Origin: Eublepharis macularius
Taxonomy: Eukaryota > Chordata > Lepidosauria > Squamata > Eublepharidae
Direction of reading: 5' to 3'
Assembly (NCBI RefSeq): GCF_028583425.1
Contig: NC_072801.1
Location: 65,673,766 to 65,737,765, forward strand
DNA length: 64,000 bases
The stretch's first letter is position 1. Every line of letters starts with the position of its first letter. The notes under the pieces are model-generated. The model saw only the letters and a program-made list of their open reading frames with translations. It did not search any database and was not told where the DNA came from. The position numbers were made by a program, and so were the translations under genes. Shown here one piece after another: positions 59 through 63,759 of this stretch.

Positions 59-274
59 TTAAATAGCGGGGAGATCAGTTCTTAGTTCTGAGAATGTAGG
101 ACAATCAAAGAAGAGGTGGTCTTCAGAGTCAATTTTGTTGCTGCCACAATTGCAGAGTCTATTTGAATATGGAATTCCACTGACTCTTCCTAGCGTCACT
201 GCTGAAGGCAGGGTATTCAGGTATGCTAGCATAAAAGTCTTTCTATAACCCCCTTCATATGTCTGACTGCACAT
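59..274 (-). mobile_element. LINE ORF2 C-terminal fragment (non-LTR retrotransposon)
   Basis: A 71-codon open stretch ending in a natural stop carries the C-terminal signature of non-LTR retrotransposon ORF2. It has a GIPYSNRLCNCG segment, then an H-L-x3-C-P spacing (DHLFFDCPTF), a CCHC-like knuckle that follows the reverse transcriptase in several LINE clades. The rest of the element lies to the right and is lost, interrupted at about 285 by DNA transposons. Bases 1-58 would be its 3' tail. The clade (CR1, L2 or other) is not decided. Confidence 0.55.
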
Positions 275-3646: not shown

Positions 3647-6400
3647 CTAAGGGAAAAAAACACGTGCATCAATAGTCAGGACCACCCACTAGGGCATTCT
3701 TAGCCCTAAAGCTATTCAGGGGAAGAGTAGACTGTCTTCACAATACTACTATTTATTTATTTATAATCCACCTTTCTCATTGAAACTCAAGGAAGATTAC
3801 ACAGTGTAGGCCGGTGTATCTATTCCATAGATAATGCAATAGGCTATGGATTGCAGAAATTTGAAAACAAGCAAAAATCAGCCACAGAGCTGAAAACAAA
3901 ATGCAAACAAGTTGACATGACATATTACATGAAGGGAACTATTTATTTAATGTGTTTATTTGTTTCATTTACTGTCTGCCTTTCTCACTGAGACTCAAGG
4001 TGGATCACATAGTGTGAGATTAGTACAATCTGTATCAAGGACAATTTCATAAACAATGCCATGGGGTAAATAAACACAAGTTTACTAAGTTATAACATTA
4101 GCAAGAATCCAATACAGAGTTGAAGAAATGCTGAAACGGAGCATAAGCAATTCTAGGGCTGACATAGGAGCACATATTGTGTGCCCCAGGGTGCTGTTGG
4201 GAAGTGGGGGTTTTCCACACTTCCCCACAGCATTGTAATGCATTCATGTGGTTTCCCCGACTTTTCTGTGATCTTTCTCAAATCTGCTTTGCTCCAAAAT
4301 TTTGAGAAAAATCACAGTAAATCCTGAATGACTGTTATGTGAGTAAGTCCAGATTTTCTCACCCACCTGGCAGCCATTTCCTCCCTCACTACCAGCGAGC
4401 TTCTTAATGTTTTTTAAAAAGAACACTGGAATATTGTTATATTGATATATTGTATAGTAACAAGAGGTATAGTGGGTTCTCTTACTTTTCATCTTTCATT
4501 TTTTAAACAAGTCTGTCTCCAGCCCTGTCCCTTGCAGAGATTTGAAAATATGCCTCTCTTTTTATATCTCTGCAAGGGAAGGGGCTTGAGGCTTTTAAAA
4601 AGGGCTGGGTATTCACAGAACCTGTTATGTTTATTATTACAGTGGTATACTGACAACAACGTTCTAGTGCCAATTTTTTTTTAATTGCAAAATTCATGGG
4701 GGCCCAGAGAAGGAGGGTGATGGCCACTGCTGGGGTCTAGGGCAGGGAATCACGCCGTGTGGAAGTCCCGTAGCTGCTGTGCTTTATTTGCAGCTGTACC
4801 AGTAAGGTGAAACCACATAAGTCCCTCCCTGTCTGGAAGCCACCTTTTAGTCTGATGTTAGCTAAGAGTTCCTTGCTGGGAGCTCAGTTCTCATGCACGT
4901 GGCCCTCATTTGAATCAGGAGTACCGCATGCACTGAGAAGGTACTCCTAGCAGCTCCCCCCTGAGCATTTCCCCCAATCTGAAATGGTCTTGCTGGGGAC
5001 CTATTTGCACCACTGGGGGCTACATGTGCCTCTGCAGATGGAGTAAATAGTCTTTAGGGGTCAGGAAAATGACAAGGGAGAGAGGCAAGAGTCCTTTCTT
5101 CCTGTAGTGCCAATATGAGAGCCAAGCTACAAGTGACGCCTGACACAGGTTGGACACTTGTCAGCTTCCCTCAAGTTTTGATGGGAAATGTAGGCATCCT
5201 GGTCTTGCAGCTGTAATGGAGAGCCAAGCTGTAAAACCAGGACGCCTACATTTCCCATCAAAAATGGAGGGAAGCTGACAAGCGTCCAACCTGTGTCAGA
5301 CGTCACTTGTAGCTTGGCTCTGAATCAGGACCCCAGACATTTTAGAATCAAGTTCCAAGCAGGGAACTCACAGCTAACGTTTGACCAGAAGCCCCCCACA
5401 GTGGATACGCAGAATCCACAGATGCTCATGGTCTGTTGGCCACCCTGAGTTTGCAGAAGTACGGCAGGGTATAAATATGTTAAATAAAACAAAAATGTGC
5501 CATGTAGCTAAGTCTTATGGGGAGTTATGCTTTGAAGGCATGGGGTGGTTAAATGACAGATGATATTGCCTGTTGAATTTGGATTGCTTGGGGTTTAAAT
5601 TGTTTTGGTCCAAACTGGGCAGAAGTACGGCAGGGTATAAATATGTTAAATAAAACAAAAATGTGCCGTGTAGCTAAGTCTTATGGGGAGTTATGCTCTG
5701 AAGGCATGGGGTGGTTAAATGACAGATGATATTGCCTGTTGAATTCAGATTGCTTGGGGTCTAAATTGGTTTGGTCGAAACTGGGCAGAACGTTGTAAAC
5801 CACCATGAGCCACTGAGGCTATATTTTAAATATTTTAACAAATAAATTATAGTCTGGGGTGGGGGAAAATAAGAGACACCTGGAAGCATAGTTCGGTCTC
5901 TTTCGGTCACTTTCCCCAGACAAAGTTCTTTTAAAAAAAAAAAAATTAAAAGTGTTTTGTGAGCCTGTGCCAAGTAATCACAACTGAACACTTCTTCCTT
6001 CCCTCCCCAAAAATCCAAGTTCTGAGCTCAACGTTCTCTACATCAGCATGCGGTGCACAAAAAGGGGTCTCAAGCACTCTCAGGGGTATGGAGGCTTCAG
6101 TAAAGAAACAGGCTAAGCACCATATCCTTAAACCATCTTCTACAGACACTGCCAATGTCAGTCTATCGCTATGAACTAGACGCTCATCTTTCCCTTTGAA
6201 AAAAGGAGGAGATTTTATGGGACCTAAGTTTTTGCAGGAGGCACAATATCCGGGCAACTCTGGAGTCGGACTCACATATTCTGTTAGCAGCTGTTCTGAG
6301 CCCCTTTGCATGGAGACACTCAAGTGGTGCGCTTGGCTGATCCGGCTTGCGATTCCTTGCTGGGAATGAGAGGAGGAGGTTCGGAGGTTTGGCAAGTCCA
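3194..6400 (-). CDS. CTF1: Cardiotrophin-type IL-6 family cytokine gene (coding exons 2 and 3; exon 1 not placed)
   Basis: Two minus-strand exons (6276-6400 and 3194-3646) join in phase 0 as TEY|VLRQGIPFG, matching remembered human CTF1 EYVQLQGDPFG at the same intron. The joined part is about 191 residues, against 201 for human CTF1. Key matches are LLTEYV in helix A, LPAFLSAVKRQQ and HRQLE in helices B/C, and VCQLYREW near the C-terminus. The C-terminal LALLATKY and the IMTAMGL segment also recall CTF2 (neuropoietin), so an ancestral or CTF2-like identity is not excluded. The family signals through gp130 and LIFR, acting on heart, nerve and metabolism. No signal peptide is seen in these exons; CTF1 lacks a classical one. 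Exon 2 begins with two bases of a split codon, so the missing exon 1 must end in phase 1. The gene is divergent to BCL7C, as in human. Confidence 0.88.
3735..4150 (-). repeat. Two minus-strand retroelement tails (LINE/SINE 3' end type)
   Basis: Both pieces contain CACCTTTCTCATTGAAACTC or GCCTTTCTCACTGAGACTC, then a TTACACAGTGT or TCACATAGTGTGAG block and AT-rich sequence. The same sequence recurs at 15420-15705 and 28470-28760. The complement (AATCCGCCTTGAGTCTCAG...AAATAAA) is the usual 3' end of a squamate retroelement. The source family is not named with certainty. Confidence 0.5.
4151..5117. other. Intron of the cardiotrophin gene, no clear repeat
   Basis: This is unique-looking sequence between exons 2 and 3 of the cytokine gene. 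I recognise nothing in it. Confidence 0.4.
5118..5321. mobile_element. Palindromic MITE (AGAGCCAAGCTACAAGTGACG family), short form
   Basis: The 204-bp element is an almost perfect inverted repeat. The left arm starts AGAGCCAAGCTACAAGTGAC and the right arm ends with its complement. The arms share the CACAGGTTGGACACTTGTC and ATGGGAAATGTAGG blocks. It corresponds to the arms of the longer copy at about 22391-22748 with the middle removed. Confidence 0.85.
5455..5786 (+). repeat. Recent tandem duplication, 2 x 166 bp
   Basis: Two adjacent units (5455-5620 and 5621-5786) read almost the same. By eye there are about eight differences, such as GCCATGTAG versus GCCGTGTAG. The unit begins AGAAGTACGGCAGGGTATAA, which is a retroelement 3' tail, and runs into non-repeat sequence. 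It lies in the intron of the cytokine gene. Confidence 0.93.
6276..6400 (-). CDS. CTF1: Cardiotrophin exon 2
   Basis: The 125-bp exon has a strong acceptor (CTATTTCTGTCTGCAG) and a consensus donor (TAT|GTGAGT). It encodes DLPNLRTSSSHSQQG and then ISQAHHLSVSMQ and GSEQLLTEY, which is helix A of the cytokine. The opening two bases complete a codon split with the upstream exon. Confidence 0.88.
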
Positions 6401-6556: not shown

Positions 6557-6756
6557 ATGCCAGTAGCTCCTTTAAGACTAACCAACTTTATTGTAGCATA
6601 AGCTTTCAAGAACCACTGCTCTCTTTGTCAGATGCACAAAGAGAGCTGTGGTTCTTGAAAGCTTATGCTACCATAACGTTGGTTAGTCTTAAAGGTGCTA
6701 CTGGGCTCTTTAGTATTTTGCAACTACAGACTAACATGGCTAACTCCTCTGGATCA
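6557..6756. mobile_element. Palindromic hAT-type MITE with 8-bp target duplication
   Basis: The 200-bp foldback contains GACTAACCAACTTTATTGT and its complement around a short centre. It ends with the tail TGCAACTACAGACTAACATG. The flanks carry TCAAGAAG at 6549-6556 and again at 6757-6764. Another intact copy is at 17167-17377, and a partial one is near 30790-30945. Confidence 0.88.
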
Positions 6757-6837: not shown

Positions 6838-7045
6838 TTGTTTTGCCAACAAGTCACAGCTTACTTATGGTGCCCCCATAGGGTTTTCAAGACAAGAGAC
6901 ATTCAAAGGTGATTTGCCATTGCCTGCCTTTATGTAGCAGCCCTGGTTTTTCTTGGTGGTCTCCCATCCAAGTACTAACCAGGGCTTACCAGCTTAGCAT
7001 CTGAGATCTGGCAAGATTTGGCTAGCCTGGGCTACCCAGGTCAGA
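6838..7045 (-). mobile_element. 5S rRNA-derived SINE
   Basis: On the minus strand it contains AGATCTCAGATGCTAAGC and TTAGTACTTGGATGGGAGACC, which match the internal promoter part of 5S rRNA. These are followed by GGCAATGGCAAA and a tail with the GTCACAGCTTACTTATGG type of sequence shared with BovB ends. This is the 5S-Sauria type of SINE as I remember it. Confidence 0.85.
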
Positions 7046-17104: not shown

Positions 17105-17500
17105 ATGTATTTGTTCAGTTACTTATACCCTGCTTTCCTCCCCAATGGGAACTCAAATTGGCTTATAGTAAAGAGTCCAGTAGCACCTTTAAGACTAACC
17201 AACTTATTTGTAGCATAAGCTTTCGAGACCCACAGCTCTCTTCATCGGATGCATCTGACAAAGAGAGCTGTGGTTCTCGAAAGCTTATGCTACAAATAAG
17301 TTGGTTAGTCTTAAAGGTGCTACTGGACTCTTTACTATTTTGCAACTACAGACTAACATAGCTAACTCCTCCGGAAGTGGCTTATGACATTGTTCTCCCC
17401 TTCTCCATTTTATTTTCACAACAAACTTGTGAGGTAGGTTCAACTGAGAGAGAATGGTTGGCTCAAGGTCACCAAGAGAGCAATCCTAGGCAGTTCTACT
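17105..17500 (-). mobile_element. tRNA-derived SINE tail interrupted by a MITE
   Basis: The flanks (CCTGCTTTCCTCCCCAATGG at the left; CCATTTTATTTTCACAACAA and AGGTAGGTTCAACTGAGAGAG at the right) together make the minus-strand body of the common tRNA-SINE. The insertion at 17167-17377 splits it. Confidence 0.75.
17167..17377. mobile_element. Palindromic hAT-type MITE with exact 8-bp target duplication
   Basis: The element starts AGTAAAGAGTCCAGTAGCAC and contains its complement near 17320-17337. It then has a TGCAACTACAGACTAACATA tail. The flanks TGGCTTAT at 17159-17166 and 17378-17385 are identical. It is the same family as 6557-6756. Confidence 0.92.
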
Positions 17501-17562: not shown

Positions 17563-18190
17563 CTGCCAGTGAGCAGACATACTGGTGCAATCGGAATTCG
17601 ATAGTACAATTTACAACAGAGAATTACCTAAAGGGCATTTCCCCTGTGGAGCTTGCAATGTTTGTCTTCTGATGGTAAAATTGGTGGACATAAATGTTAA
17701 TAGGGAAAGAGCGCCGTTCCCTAAAGGTCTCTCTACTTGCAAAACATCTAATGTAGTATACCTCATTCAGTGTAGCTGCCCCTTAATCTATGTGGGCAGC
17801 ACAACCCGTCAACTAAGGATCAGAATACAGGAACATATCTCCCGTGTAAGAAATAAAGTAACTGAAGCCGCCCTAGTAGAACATTACTGGGCTAACGATC
17901 ACAATATGAGGGATTTAAGAGTTTCAGTAGTTGAAATTGTGGAATCCACTTCATCCTCAGACCAAACTAGAAAGTTACTACAAGTGGAGAGTAGATGGAA
18001 AACTAGATCTGTTCCTGAATATGTAAAGTCAAATAGAGCATCCATGATAAGTGGCAGTGTATCTAAAAGAGCAATTTCCTCTTAGGAAACTGCAAGTCTT
18101 GCTGGTGAACTTCCCAAGACATGGAGGCTGGTCACTATTAAAGAAAGAATACTAGCTTAGTGGGACTCTTATATACTTTGATTCAAATAT
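17563..18190 (+). mobile_element. Penelope-like retroelement, 3' part with GIY-YIG endonuclease
   Basis: The piece starts within coding sequence and continues past the stop at 18085 into probable 3' flanking sequence. No reverse transcriptase domain remains. It belongs to the Penelope-like elements that carry a C-terminal GIY-YIG domain (Neptune/Poseidon/Penelope groups; group not decided). The right boundary is approximate. Confidence 0.8.
17585..18085 (+). CDS. GIY-YIG endonuclease domain of a Penelope-like element
   Basis: An open frame of about 166 residues, starting without an ATG because the element is 5'-truncated. Near the start is GHFPCGACNVC, the CxxC-type zinc motif that precedes the endonuclease in these elements. 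The GIY-YIG core is VVYLIQCSCPLIYVG, followed by TTRQLRIRIQEH with the conserved arginines and histidine of the family. A downstream ALVEHYWANDHN matches the conserved E and H-x3-DH pattern. In intact elements this domain nicks target DNA for reverse transcription. The frame has stayed open across the whole domain, which suggests a fairly recent insertion. Host use of the domain is possible but there is no evidence for it here. Confidence 0.85.
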   Translation: MQSEFDSTIYNRELPKGHFPCGACNVCLLMVKLVDINVNRERAPFPKGLSTCKTSNVVYLIQCSCPLIYVGSTTRQLRIRIQEHISRVRNKVTEAALVEHYWANDHNMRDLRVSVVEIVESTSSSDQTRKLLQVESRWKTRSVPEYVKSNRASMISGSVSKRAISS

Positions 18191-30456: not shown

Positions 30457-39814
<9,358 letters not shown>

Positions 39815-49320: not shown

Positions 49321-49944
49321 GTAAAACAATTTAGGCTCCCAAATGTTCTGTTCTTTATGCTCCCTTGTTCCTCTGTGTGCTCACCAAAGGTATCTGTTAC
49401 GCGGTAGCTGCTGTTGTAGACCGGTAGAAATGTATCCAACAGTTTCCAAGCGGTGGCTATAGGAACTGGCTCTACTTTTCAGGGGGAAAGGCTCTTCTCT
49501 AAAAGTTGTTCCCACCCCACTGTCGAAAATCATGGAAATTACCATGCTGGAAAGAAGCCGTTACTAAATTTTTTTAAAAATCTAGGGTCTTGCCTCTATT
49601 ACTATTGTTTAACGCCTCTGAGAGTGATTTTAGGTATGCCTTCCATGTGAAACTGAGGTGGTAGAGTCCTGCCTGTGCAAAGCTTTTTCCCTCTTCTGTA
49701 GGTATGAAATGGCCTATAGTAAAAAGCTACAGGTGGTAGGTATAAGACCAAAAACAACTAGAGGAACTCACAGCCAGAACTTCTGGTAAAACTTGATAGC
49801 TGCTATTAGCCTTAATTCTGTGTGGGGGCAGACTGCTGTTCCATGGGGGAAATCATGAATTGAGAAATAAGAATGAAAAATTATTTCATTTTTAGACTGA
49901 GACTGTAAGTAGGGACAGTGGTGATATGTTGGTTCACTACAGTT

Positions 49945-50180
49945 TGGTGTAGTGGTTAAGAGCAGCAGGACTCTAATCTGGAGAGCCGGGTTTGATTCCC
50001 CACTCCTCCACTTGAAGCCAGCTGGGTGACCTTAGGCTAGTCACACTTCTCTGGAGCTCTCTCAGCCCCATCTACCTCACAGGGTGTTTGTTTTGGGGAT
50101 AACAATGACATACTTCGTAAACTGCTCTGAGTAGGTGTTAAGTCATCCTGAAGAACGATCTATAAATTGGATGTTGTTGT
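49945..50180 (+). mobile_element. tRNA-derived SINE (GGTGTAGTGGTTAAGAGC family)
   Basis: CAGTTTGGTGTAGTGGTTAA, GGGTTTGATTCCCCACTCC and AAGCCAGCTGGGTGACC mark it. The tail is GTTAAGTCATCCTGAAG then TATAAATTGG. It ends about 110 bp before the zinc finger gene's first coding exon. Confidence 0.92.
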
Positions 50181-57500: not shown

Positions 57501-60500
57501 GCGCCCAGTGGGACACTCTTTGGCTTGCCGGCGGAACATTTAGGTTGGGTCTGAGTATGTTCCAGGACATGTTGTCTCAGACAAAGTCCTGGCTTTTTGA
57601 GAGAAAAACAAGCTGGGACTGTTGCTGCCATCTCTCAATTATACTTGGCTTATAAGTTAGCACCCTATTTAGACTCTGTTGACTTTGCCCTACTGATCCT
57701 GTGCCACTGGAACCTCCATGTTGGACTACTGTGATATACTGTTCATGGGGCTACCTCCTGAAGATGATCCAAACACTTCAGTTGGTACACAATACGGCAA
57801 CAGGGCTTTTGTCTGGGGTTCACTGCACAAACCATATAGCTCCATCTACACTGGTTGCCATGCCCAGGTCAAGGTGCTGGTTGTTACCTTTGAAGCCCTT
57901 CCTGGCCTGTGACCCTCATACTTGCCAGACGGCATCTCCTAATATTCTCTGCACCAGTTGCACTCTTCAGGTGACCATCTCCTTGCTCTTTTTATTAGTG
58001 TATAAGATTGGGACAGAGCTGGCAGATCAGCTCCACTAATGGTGGCGCGTCCCTCTAGAGTAAGGAACCTTCTTCCAATATGAGAGCTACTGTTTGCAGA
58101 ACAAGATATGCAGGATGCAATTCCATTTGTTTGGTTCTCTGTTGTCACTTAAAATTGTTCACCTTTTAAAAAATATTTGATCTTTTCACTGATTTTTTTT
58201 TAATGGCTCAATATGAGGCTCCCGGGGCATTTTGATAAGCAGGATACAAATGCTCTTCTCTAAGCAGGCAGAATGTGGCTTTGAGAGCCAGTTTGGTGTA
58301 GTGGTTAAGAGCAGGGGGTACTCTAATCTGGAGAGCCAGGTTTGATTCCCCACTCCTCCACTTGAAGCCAGTTGGGTGATCTTGGGTCAGTCACAGCTCT
58401 TACAGAGCTCTCTCAGCCCCACCCACCTCATAGGGTGATTATTGGGAGGATAATAATAACACACAGATAATCTCAAGATTTATATAACTAGGGCACAGAA
58501 ATGGTCAATTTTCCTTTTTAAATATTGTTTTTCATATTATGTTCTTACTATTGCTGTGTACTCTTTGCATGTACAATTTAAAATCTACAAACATCAAAAT
58601 AGACTAATAGTTAAGTTAAATAGTGAGACTAATAACGAAATATACCAAATATTGTGTGATAGAATACAACGTTGAATACAAAATGTTTAACGTTCCACCT
58701 ATGTTGAATCCCCCTTAAAAAAACCCCTCTTAAAATAGGTTATCAAATACATTTAGAAATATTATAGCTTATTCTTTCTTTTTGATAATGGAAGTGAGAT
58801 AGAGGAGTAAAAGTATGATGTTCAGTTATCTTATATATTCTGATTCTATCTTTCATGTAGCTCAAATCTATTACTATATATTATATATACTTTTTTGATG
58901 TATCCTAATGTATTTTGTATAAGATTCTATGCATTCAATTGTTATTTCTCTTTTTCTAAATAACATTTATAATAACTTCAAAAAAAAAAGATTTTAGTCC
59001 ATCAGTACCTTAAAGACCAACAAGATTTCCAGGGTATAAGCTTTCAAGAGTCAAGCTCTCAGTCCTGCTGCATGCCAACATGGCTACCCACCTGAAATAG
59101 ATAATCTCAGTCTTCCTTTCTTAAAAAGTCCTTATAATTTCAGTCCTTATAATTTCTGAGAAGGCTTAAAAACCAAGTGGGCAATGTTTGGTAGCAGAGA
59201 GAAACTTCGTAGTGGCTAGGAATGTGTGAGTAATGCTGGAAAAGGAAAGAGCAGCCACCTCATAATTCTCTCTCTTCTCTGTCTTTCCCTTTCCAGAAGA
59301 TGCTGAGCTCTCAAGCGAGTCTGACTGTGAGGAACTGGTAACGTGGAAGGAAGACAAAGCTGCTGATAAGCTGCCGGCTGCATTAGGGTCTACGAGCCCT
59401 CTAGAAGCCTGGGATACCACTGTCAAAAATAACTCTCCCAGCAAGGATGGGAACAGGCCCCGATGGCATCGGACTGAGCCACGCTTTGGATGCCCCGACT
59501 GTGGGAAGACGTTCCCATGGCAGTCGGCCTTGGCACGGCACCAGCTCTCTCACTCTGGAGAGAAGCCCTACCGGTGCGCTGACTGTCCAAAAAGCTTTGC
59601 TCAGCGCTCAAAGTTATCCCGGCACCGACGCCTTCATACGGGGGAACCCTCCTGTGAGTGCTCAGAGTGTGGGAAGCGCTTCTGTGATCGCTACAAACTG
59701 GCTCGGCATCAGAAGACCCACTCTGGCGAGCGGCCTTTCCGCTGTGAAGTATGTGGCCGCGGATTCTGCCTCAGCTCCAATCTGCGGCAGCATCGGCGGG
59801 TTCACACAGGAGAGCGCCCCCATAGCTGTCCGGAGTGTGGCAGATGTTTCAGCCGCCGCTCCAACCTGATCCAGCACCTACGGGTACACCAACTGCAGTG
59901 GCAACAGCAAGGAGAGCATGGTACGGAGCTCCATGGGGTAGACTCGGAGCTCGGGCAAGGCTTTGACCTTTGCGAGGAGGAGTGGGAATACGAGTGGATT
60001 GCAGACACGCAGGATGGGGAACAGATAAGTGAGCTCCATGCCGGGGGCTATGAGGGACAGCCAAGCTCGGGCCTCCTCACTGGAGATCATCAAGGTGAGG
60101 AGATCCTGGAGTTCTGCGTGGGGGATTATGAACATGGGTGGACTTCTGAGATCATCAACGGACACCATGAAAACAACACGCTGATTGAGCTCCAACCTGA
60201 GAACCACGAATCCCAGCCGGGTTTAGACCTTCAATCCGGAGATCACGAGAACGAGATTGTGGAGCTCCGTGTGGGGGATGGGGATCACCATGAGTGGAAC
60301 AAGGAACTTGACGGTGAGGATGAGGGCGAGGATGATGATTGCCTGCTCATCACTGATGATGGGCCGCCCCATCCAGACAGCGGCATGAATTGCCCCAGCA
60401 CGAATTGCCCCAGCACGAACCTCCCGTCAGTCGACCATGCCCACTTAGCAGAGAGTGAGACCCCCCAGTGCTCCGACTGCGGGCGGACATTTACCCGGAA

Positions 60501-63240: not shown

Positions 63241-63409
63241 GCTGCAGTTTTGGTGTAGTGGTTAAGAGCAGCAGGACTCTAATCTGGAGAACCAGGTTTG
63301 ATTCCTCACTCCTCCACTTGAAGCCAGCTTGGTGACCTTGGGTCAGGCACAGCTTCTAGGAGCTCTCTCAGCCCCACCCACCTCACAGGGTGATTGTTGT
63401 GAGGATAAT

Positions 63410-63564
63410 GACCTGCCAACATCTTTTCCACACTGTGACACTGAGAGATCTCTGTCTTTTGGTGTTACACCTCTGAAGATGCCAGCCACAGCTGCTGGCG
63501 AAACGTCAGGAACTACAATGCCAGGACCACGGCAATACAGCCCGGAAAACCCACAACAACCATC
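63410..63564 (+). mobile_element. 155-bp Penelope-type insert carrying a hammerhead-like motif
   Basis: The insert lies between GAGGATAAT and AATAATAAC of the SINE, with an AAT duplication at the edges. It runs from GACCTGCCAACATC to ACCCACAACAACCATC. By memory the block TCTGAAGATGCCAGCCAC, with CAATACAGCCCGGAAAACCC, is a recurrent element in lizard genomes and belongs to the repeats of Penelope-like elements. It has no coding capacity. Confidence 0.6.
63470..63513 (+). ncRNA. Candidate minimal hammerhead ribozyme
   Basis: The order of core parts is CTGAAGA (63473-63479), stem II GCCAGC paired with GCTGGC (63481-63486 with 63494-63499) around a 7-base loop, then GAAA (63500-63503), CGT and C at 63507. 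Stem III is only two base pairs (AC and GT), which is typical of the dimer-forming hammerheads of Penelope-like elements. CCT (63470-63472) pairs with AGG (63508-63510) as stem I. One extra T (63480) lies between the core A and stem II, which is unusual. Predicted cleavage is after C63507. Activity is not shown. Confidence 0.55.
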
Positions 63565-63759
63565 AATAATAACACACTTTGTAAATCACTCTGAGTGGGT
63601 GTTAAGTTGTCCTGAAGGGTGGTATATAAATCAAATATTGTATTAGGTGGGGGTTCCAGTGCTGGGGTGGCTTAATTCTTTCACCTCTCTGCCTTCCAAT
63701 TTCCAGCTGGTTTTACCCCAGCCAGGGAAACAAGACAGACCCCCTACCCATTTTGGATT

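Follow-up and report, generated by a model that had tools for sequence, protein, structure and literature searches.

The 155-bp insert that interrupts a tRNA-type SINE in the analysed window, a stretch of 64,000 nt of Eublepharis macularius contig NC_072801.1, is very probably a dead, 5′-truncated copy of an endonuclease-bearing Penelope-like element (PLE) of the same kind as Poseidon of Anolis (PAc). The anatomy of the insert, the family to which it belongs, the two 3′ ends of that family and the empty insertion site are all direct observations in the present data, and the features of the window are collected in Table 1.

Table 1. Features in the 64,000-nt window, in positions counted from its first letter.
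Feature	Positions	Strand	Basis or remark
Head-to-head pair of family-2 motifs	6596..6668	.	6634-6668 +, damaged; 6596-6635 -
Head-to-head pair of family-2 motifs	17213..17290	.	17251-17290 +; 17213-17252 -
GIY-YIG endonuclease fragment of another PLE group (family 3)	17573..18085	+	PF01541, E 3.6e-6
Family-2 motif, GCAT CTGACGA A GAGAGC TGTG GTTCTC GAAAGCTT ATGC	30815..30854	+	structural descriptor scan
tRNA-type SINE, 5′ part, split by the insert	63249..63409	+	SINE copies elsewhere in the window
Very probable 5′-truncated PLE copy (pseudo-LTR end and first 86 nt of the ORF), ending at the putative short (S) reverse-transcription start	63410..63564	+	153/155 identical to L031
Predicted 16-bp hairpin in the 5′ leader, immediately 5′ of the motif	63434..63469	+	minimum-energy fold of the insert
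Minimal hammerhead-like motif	63470..63510	+	predicted cut after C63507
PLE reading-frame start, 28 codons, MPATAAGETSGT...	63479..63562	+	frame translation
Single extra base (T) between core A9 and stem II	63480..63480	+	middle base of ATG 63479-63481
AC-rich 3′ end of the insert, putative reverse-transcription start site	63546..63564	+	clustered copy ends; compare accessible text of PMC11167929
SINE, 3′ part	63565..63641	+	matches 34956-34881 and 50101-50177

The window scan found all core elements of a hammerhead in the expected order. The 5′ core CTGAAGA (63473-63479) and the extra T are followed by stem II, in which GCCAGC (63481-63486) and GCTGGC (63494-63499) form six of six Watson-Crick pairs around a 7-nt loop, CACAGCT, and the 3′ core consists of GAAAC (63500-63504) and then GTC (63505-63507). 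Stem I has three base pairs (CCT/AGG), and the loopless, palindromic stem III has two (AC/GT). The elements, stem lengths and core order proposed earlier from the letters alone (the sequence-only reading) were in this way confirmed base for base. Minimal PLE hammerheads share the conserved core CUGANGA...GAAA...NUH, with which the window motif agrees over 63473-63507. As far as the accessible text of citing papers describes them (PMC6155905, PMC7761336, PMC6466107), the minimal PLE hammerheads of Cervera & de la Pena 2014 and Lunse et al. 2017 also resemble the motif in having almost no stem III, a stem I of a few base pairs and a palindromic stem III suited to a dimer, and differ from it in the extra base that the motif carries between A9 and stem II. 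The strict motif pattern matched once in the window and in none of 100 shuffles. A stricter descriptor, which asks for at least 6 bp in stem II and 3 bp in stem I, was matched in 0 of 200 dinucleotide shuffles, and a looser one with minima of 4 and 2 in 7 of 200. The descriptor scan also picked up the family-2 motif at 30815-30854, which is absent from the sequence-only reading.

The idea that the motif is coding or terminal sequence which resembles a hammerhead by chance and has no RNA function would agree with the silence of Rfam. Across the whole window no hammerhead family reached the gathering score, and at E<=10 around the motif the search, which included no positive control for small PLE hammerheads, gave just weak matches to unrelated families; the canonical hammerhead covariance models do not recognise the motif. 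Rfam likewise reported no hammerhead at the motifs of two related groups read as hammerheads (families 2 and 3), two family-3 loci among them. Predicted folds do not favour the motif either. In the lowest-energy fold of a 52-nt piece stem II is present, but the core CTGA is paired with TCAG, and in that of the 155-nt insert other hairpins replace stem II, such that neither fold holds the complete motif. Genome-wide the motif pattern gave 243 matches as against 4 for a control; of the 100 places listed, 99 look like members of the insert's family and one looks like a chance match, with no other start-codon hammerhead family among them. In all 99 the second base of stem II is changed, and no copy has the matching change opposite; members with T at this base retain a G-U pair. 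Copies within the family are too similar to one another for a comparative test of the fold. The sequence-only reading had named the lack of a covariance hit, or uncompensated stem-II changes combined with freely varying core bases, as grounds for doubting a hammerhead, and the first as well as part of the second were observed. Uncompensated changes are to be expected in dead copies; they lend no support to the fold and have little bearing on the active lineage. Furthermore, according to the accessible text of PMC11167929, insertion of PAc in vitro is independent of cleavage. The same text reports that the PAc counterpart does cleave, just in the presence of the protein, and that it responds to C3/G8 mutants, which speaks against a chance resemblance, as do the absence of an equal motif from the 200 shuffles and the fact that families 2 and 3, the latter less fully, show the core again together with other, paired stems. 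Taken together, a chance resemblance is improbable.

A covariance model made from family 2 alone scored the window motif at 2.4 bits and a chance match on the opposite strand at 6.9 bits, and was rejected as independent support. In viral contigs the motif was matched at 18 loci; judged by eye, these lie in phage-like coding sequence, lack a proper stem II and match by chance, and they were discarded. Other exact motif patterns had no match in viral contigs, a phage collection gave none, and of eight candidate viral-contig stretches not one codes for a protein related to the window endonuclease. A literature text search with short stretches of the motif matched no paper.

In a standard hammerhead, stem II follows directly after A9. 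The bulged T that the sequence-only reading had found odd is indeed present, and corresponds to the U in the start codon AUG (A9-U-G10.1). An A occupies this position in families 2 and 3 (11 of 12 sequences parsed; L119 gave no parse), and the start codon may have made use of an extra base that already existed. From the ATG to the predicted cut the spacing is 26 nt in the insert's family.

Families 2 and 3 were lightly sampled in the genome. Family 2, a more diverged repeat family with a stem I of GCAT/ATGC and a palindromic AGCT at stem III, has at least 71 genomic matches (the best 40 of 1549 first-look candidates were scored), and its copies retain the core and the stems. A partner in opposite orientation is listed at 31 of the 40 scored places, and many of these overlap by about 20 bp around GATGCATC. 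Family 3, the PLE group of the window endonuclease, occupies at least 150 genomic places (150 scored of 22,253 candidates), and its 3′ flanks (L115-L125) contain a three-stem hammerhead-like structure with a stem I of GTGCC/GGCAC, a stem III of ACGGGA/TCCCGT and a 5′ core that partially matches CTGANGA. Nine sequences were excised; the alignment leaves out the divergent L122 and also L124, which nearly duplicates L121. In the remaining seven, 94.3% of cells are paired and compensated changes occur in stems I and II. Five cells have changed on both sides, where shuffles give 1.4 and none of 500 gives as many; counted by pair, double changes occur in 3, which 35 of 500 shuffles also attain, and slid controls show no changes on both sides. 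For the window endonuclease no PDB relative was found by sequence below E 0.5. Among the places listed for this second PLE group, 22 of 150 fall within open frames longer than 700 codons, one of which has an internal TGA, and some of the long frames stand in opposite pairs a few kb apart; this family may have been active recently.

The insert itself is real, as the sequence-only reading had it. SINE copies at 34881-35116 (-) and 49937-50177 (+) match both flanks of the insertion site and are free of the insert, and a third copy at 58292-58454 (+), also without it, matches the left flank and a few bases past the site. The SINE was assigned to the tRNA type by its look; a search for tRNA genes in the window gave none. 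The insertion site is AAT-rich: the filled site reads GGATAAT, insert, then AATAATAAC, and the copy at 58.3 kb reads GGATAATAATAAC. AAT is common to the target, the insert boundary and the longer element (...ACAAAT), and is therefore microhomology or a very short duplication; the window copy has no clear target-site duplication, AAT alone being shared. Insertion into AAT repeats fits the ATT preference published for PAc. Elsewhere in the window, a 5S rRNA-like match at 6930-7038 (-) scores 38.7 bits against an Rfam threshold of 38 and is possibly a 5S-derived repeat.

A search of the 2.24-Gb genome with the 155-bp unit yielded at least 41 matches of 96-100% identity, the best 40 of 548 first-look candidates being scored. 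These 40 loci (L019-L046 and L083-L094, here sample A), of which the window is one, were selected by their match to the 155 bp and independently of their 3′ ends. In 36 of them, by a hand count with the frame end at query position 316, a copy extends upstream through the pseudo-LTR into an endonuclease frame. The earlier assignment of the motif to the minimal PLE kind and its link to Penelope-like elements are supported. One long stretch, L082, illustrates the arrangement: a frame at 4320-4985 with GVYRIPCICGQVYIGTTKRS..., read by eye as GIY-YIG, ends about 15 bp 5′ of the unit and is followed by the pseudo-LTR end and the unit, so that a GIY-YIG frame is linked to the repeat as in EN+ PLEs. 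An RT-like frame (GVAMGSPLSPVIANFYMEHF...FVDDTFI, also recognised by eye) lies in L082 on the other strand beside an inverted copy. The family's own endonuclease falls below any Pfam cut-off (best T5orf172, E 0.08). The Pfam-positive GIY-YIG fragment at 17.6-18.1 kb, which the sequence-only reading had mentioned alongside the insert, is genuine but is not its parent, since it belongs to a different PLE group and is identical to the family's endonuclease at 19 of 48 positions (40% over 48 aa). A 39-aa frame start taken from L025 matches all 150 scored places of 62,378 loose candidates; it has no Pfam match and in PDB a chance match alone (E 5.5).

The ends of the copies were mapped with a 518-nt piece of L031 as query, which gave 111 pieces from 64 loci, some places being fetched twice. 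Two 3′ ends 32 bp apart account for most pieces, and copies diverge right after each of them. The short end (S) was found in 48 of the 111 pieces at ATG+80..91, 40 of these at +84..88, and the long end (L) in 58 at ATG+113..118, 56 of these at +116..118; the query stops at +118, and the L end is also supported by the flanks, which diverge between copies directly after it. The S end of the window insert (ATG+86) is shared with other genomic copies. A pseudo-LTR that reaches across the ORF start and has an optional tail of about 30-40 bp, as found here, is characteristic of PLEs. The 5′ ends of the 111 pieces are scattered over many positions, and none coincides with the predicted hammerhead cut (query position 430).

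These data contradict the proposal that the insert is a non-autonomous, retrozyme-like relative, that is, a short element spreading as small circular RNA from tandem hammerheads. The proposal is understandable, since the unit is short and carries a type-I-like hammerhead, and animal (non-LTR) retrozymes, with RNAs of about 170-400 nt in the accessible part of PMC7229834, likewise carry a type I hammerhead in a short repeat. Unlike the retrozymes described there, the insert's family shows no tandem array and no unit-length repeat, and a coding parent exists; a longer PLE supplies the 155 bp as its 3′ end and continues into coding sequence in 36 of 40 loci, and the 5′ ends of the 111 pieces are scattered, with none at the cut site. 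Head-to-tail copies, which the sequence-only reading had suggested looking for, are limited to one direct tandem of 3′ ends in the 40 loci as against 20 head-to-head pairs. In this tandem (L092, 1670-2390) an L-ended copy is directly followed by an S-ended copy in the same orientation. We regard a retrozyme as very unlikely. That the hammerhead was domesticated and is kept by the host at this locus is hardly credible: every motif base of the window copy is intact, but the commonest family version, a 44-nt stretch, is identical to it (62 of 115 matched stretches in the insert's family, overlapping loci being partly double-counted), and the intact motif therefore reflects youth and not selection.

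The preferred reading, a truncated PLE copy, gains from comparison with PAc, the Poseidon PLE of Anolis carolinensis. In PAc, as the accessible text of PMC11167929 describes it, the start codon lies at the beginning of stem II and the cut 26 bp downstream, and an AC-rich stem loop, 111-118 bp from the beginning of the ORF, is where reverse transcription starts; an optional tail of 30-40 bp is defined by a second start, and AT-rich targets are preferred, with a preference for ATT. RNA-seq showed no RNA ends at the cut site, and both strands were extended in vitro with no strand difference in the start site. The insert's family is alike in the start codon at stem II, the spacing of 26 to the cut, the AC-rich end, the position of the starts (116-118 here), the shorter alternative end and the AT-rich targets; the paired use of S and L ends per insertion seen here is not described in the accessible text of that paper. 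On these matching measurements, compared by published description, we take PAc and the insert's element to be of one kind.

Half of the sample-A loci (20 of 40) contain two opposite copies with their 3′ ends outward, and all 20 pairs combine an S-ended arm with an L-ended one. For L022, whose second arm is cut by the end of the stretch, this was verified in the longer stretch L082 from the same place, which shows the short end. If S and L were used equally and independently, 20 of 20 S/L pairs would arise with a chance of 2^-20, about 1 in a million. Single-ended sample-A loci divide into 10 S and 9 L; these 19 are one-ended within the fetched flanks, and some may have a farther partner, the remaining locus being the direct tandem. 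In sample B (29 loci among L048-L081, chosen via their L arm) all 23 evaluable pairs are S/L; five loci have no pair, and L052, which appears short/short but has one arm cut by the end of the fetched stretch, was not judged and not counted. As in other PLEs, the double-ended copies are flanked by target-site duplications: with trimming of up to 6 bases allowed per junction, these reach at least 7 bp in 17 of 19 testable head-to-head pairs, and random pairings reach a duplication of at least 8 bp in 0.25% of 2000. Two of the 19 single-ended loci, L027 (9 bp) and L044 (8 bp), have duplications of at least 7 bp. Since their flanks carry such duplications, each head-to-head pair is most likely one insertion. 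The 5′ ends of the two arms lie within 2 nt of each other in 9 of 23 sample-B pairs as against a permutation mean of 1.9, and in 1 of 18 sample-A pairs after two pairs with both arms reaching the query start were dropped. The predicted leader hairpin abuts stem I of the motif and contains the palindrome GAGATCTC, near which many arms of sample-B pairs stop.

Snap-back of the cDNA was rejected as the source of the pairs, since it predicts equal 3′ ends and none of the evaluable pairs has them. Head-to-head pseudo-LTRs are also known from Penelope of Adineta vaga, where one of them may carry a tail of 31 bp; the authors favour self-priming on an antisense template (accessible text of PMC3846280). 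Short target-site duplications, an optional tail and microhomology at the 5′ junction are further likenesses to the present family; the strict S/L pairing fits two separate primings better than self-priming. Together with the extension of both strands in PAc, the strict S/L rule argues for two target-primed syntheses per insertion, one per DNA end. The fuller model, in which the family inserts by two target-primed reverse transcriptions starting at different sites (ATG+86 and ATG+118) and the cDNAs are joined head to head, stands at an even balance in our judgement.

For the window copy, target-primed synthesis and protein-assisted cleavage are suggested by analogy with PAc as described in the accessible text of PMC11167929. 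The element RNA would fold a minimal hammerhead around its own start codon, A9-U-G10.1 being the AUG, and the element's protein would cut an AT-rich (AAT)n stretch within the SINE. The protein would then prime reverse transcription no more than ~120 nt into the ORF, in this copy at the S site (ATG+86); the cDNA would extend back across the hammerhead and halt in the leader, and the 5′ end would be joined via the common bases AAT.

The motif adds a case to a kind already described, and its analysis mainly settles the insert as a truncated PLE and not a retrozyme. The wider meaning lies with the double insertions. The strict S/L rule would follow if both starts lay on one RNA and the first of them blocked the site upstream, or if a double hammerhead held two RNAs together in an asymmetric protein dimer; if true, the single-RNA or the dimer model would give a role to the hammerhead or the 'tail'. 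The many well-preserved copies in this genome bear on the mechanism of Penelope insertion, on which PMC11167929 and PMC3846280, in their accessible text, differ: the former has target-primed initiation at internal sites for both strands, the latter self-priming with an antisense template. The S/L rule is a simple, testable fingerprint of that mechanism, and the PLE 'tail' may be explained as the distance between two start sites, each used once per insertion.
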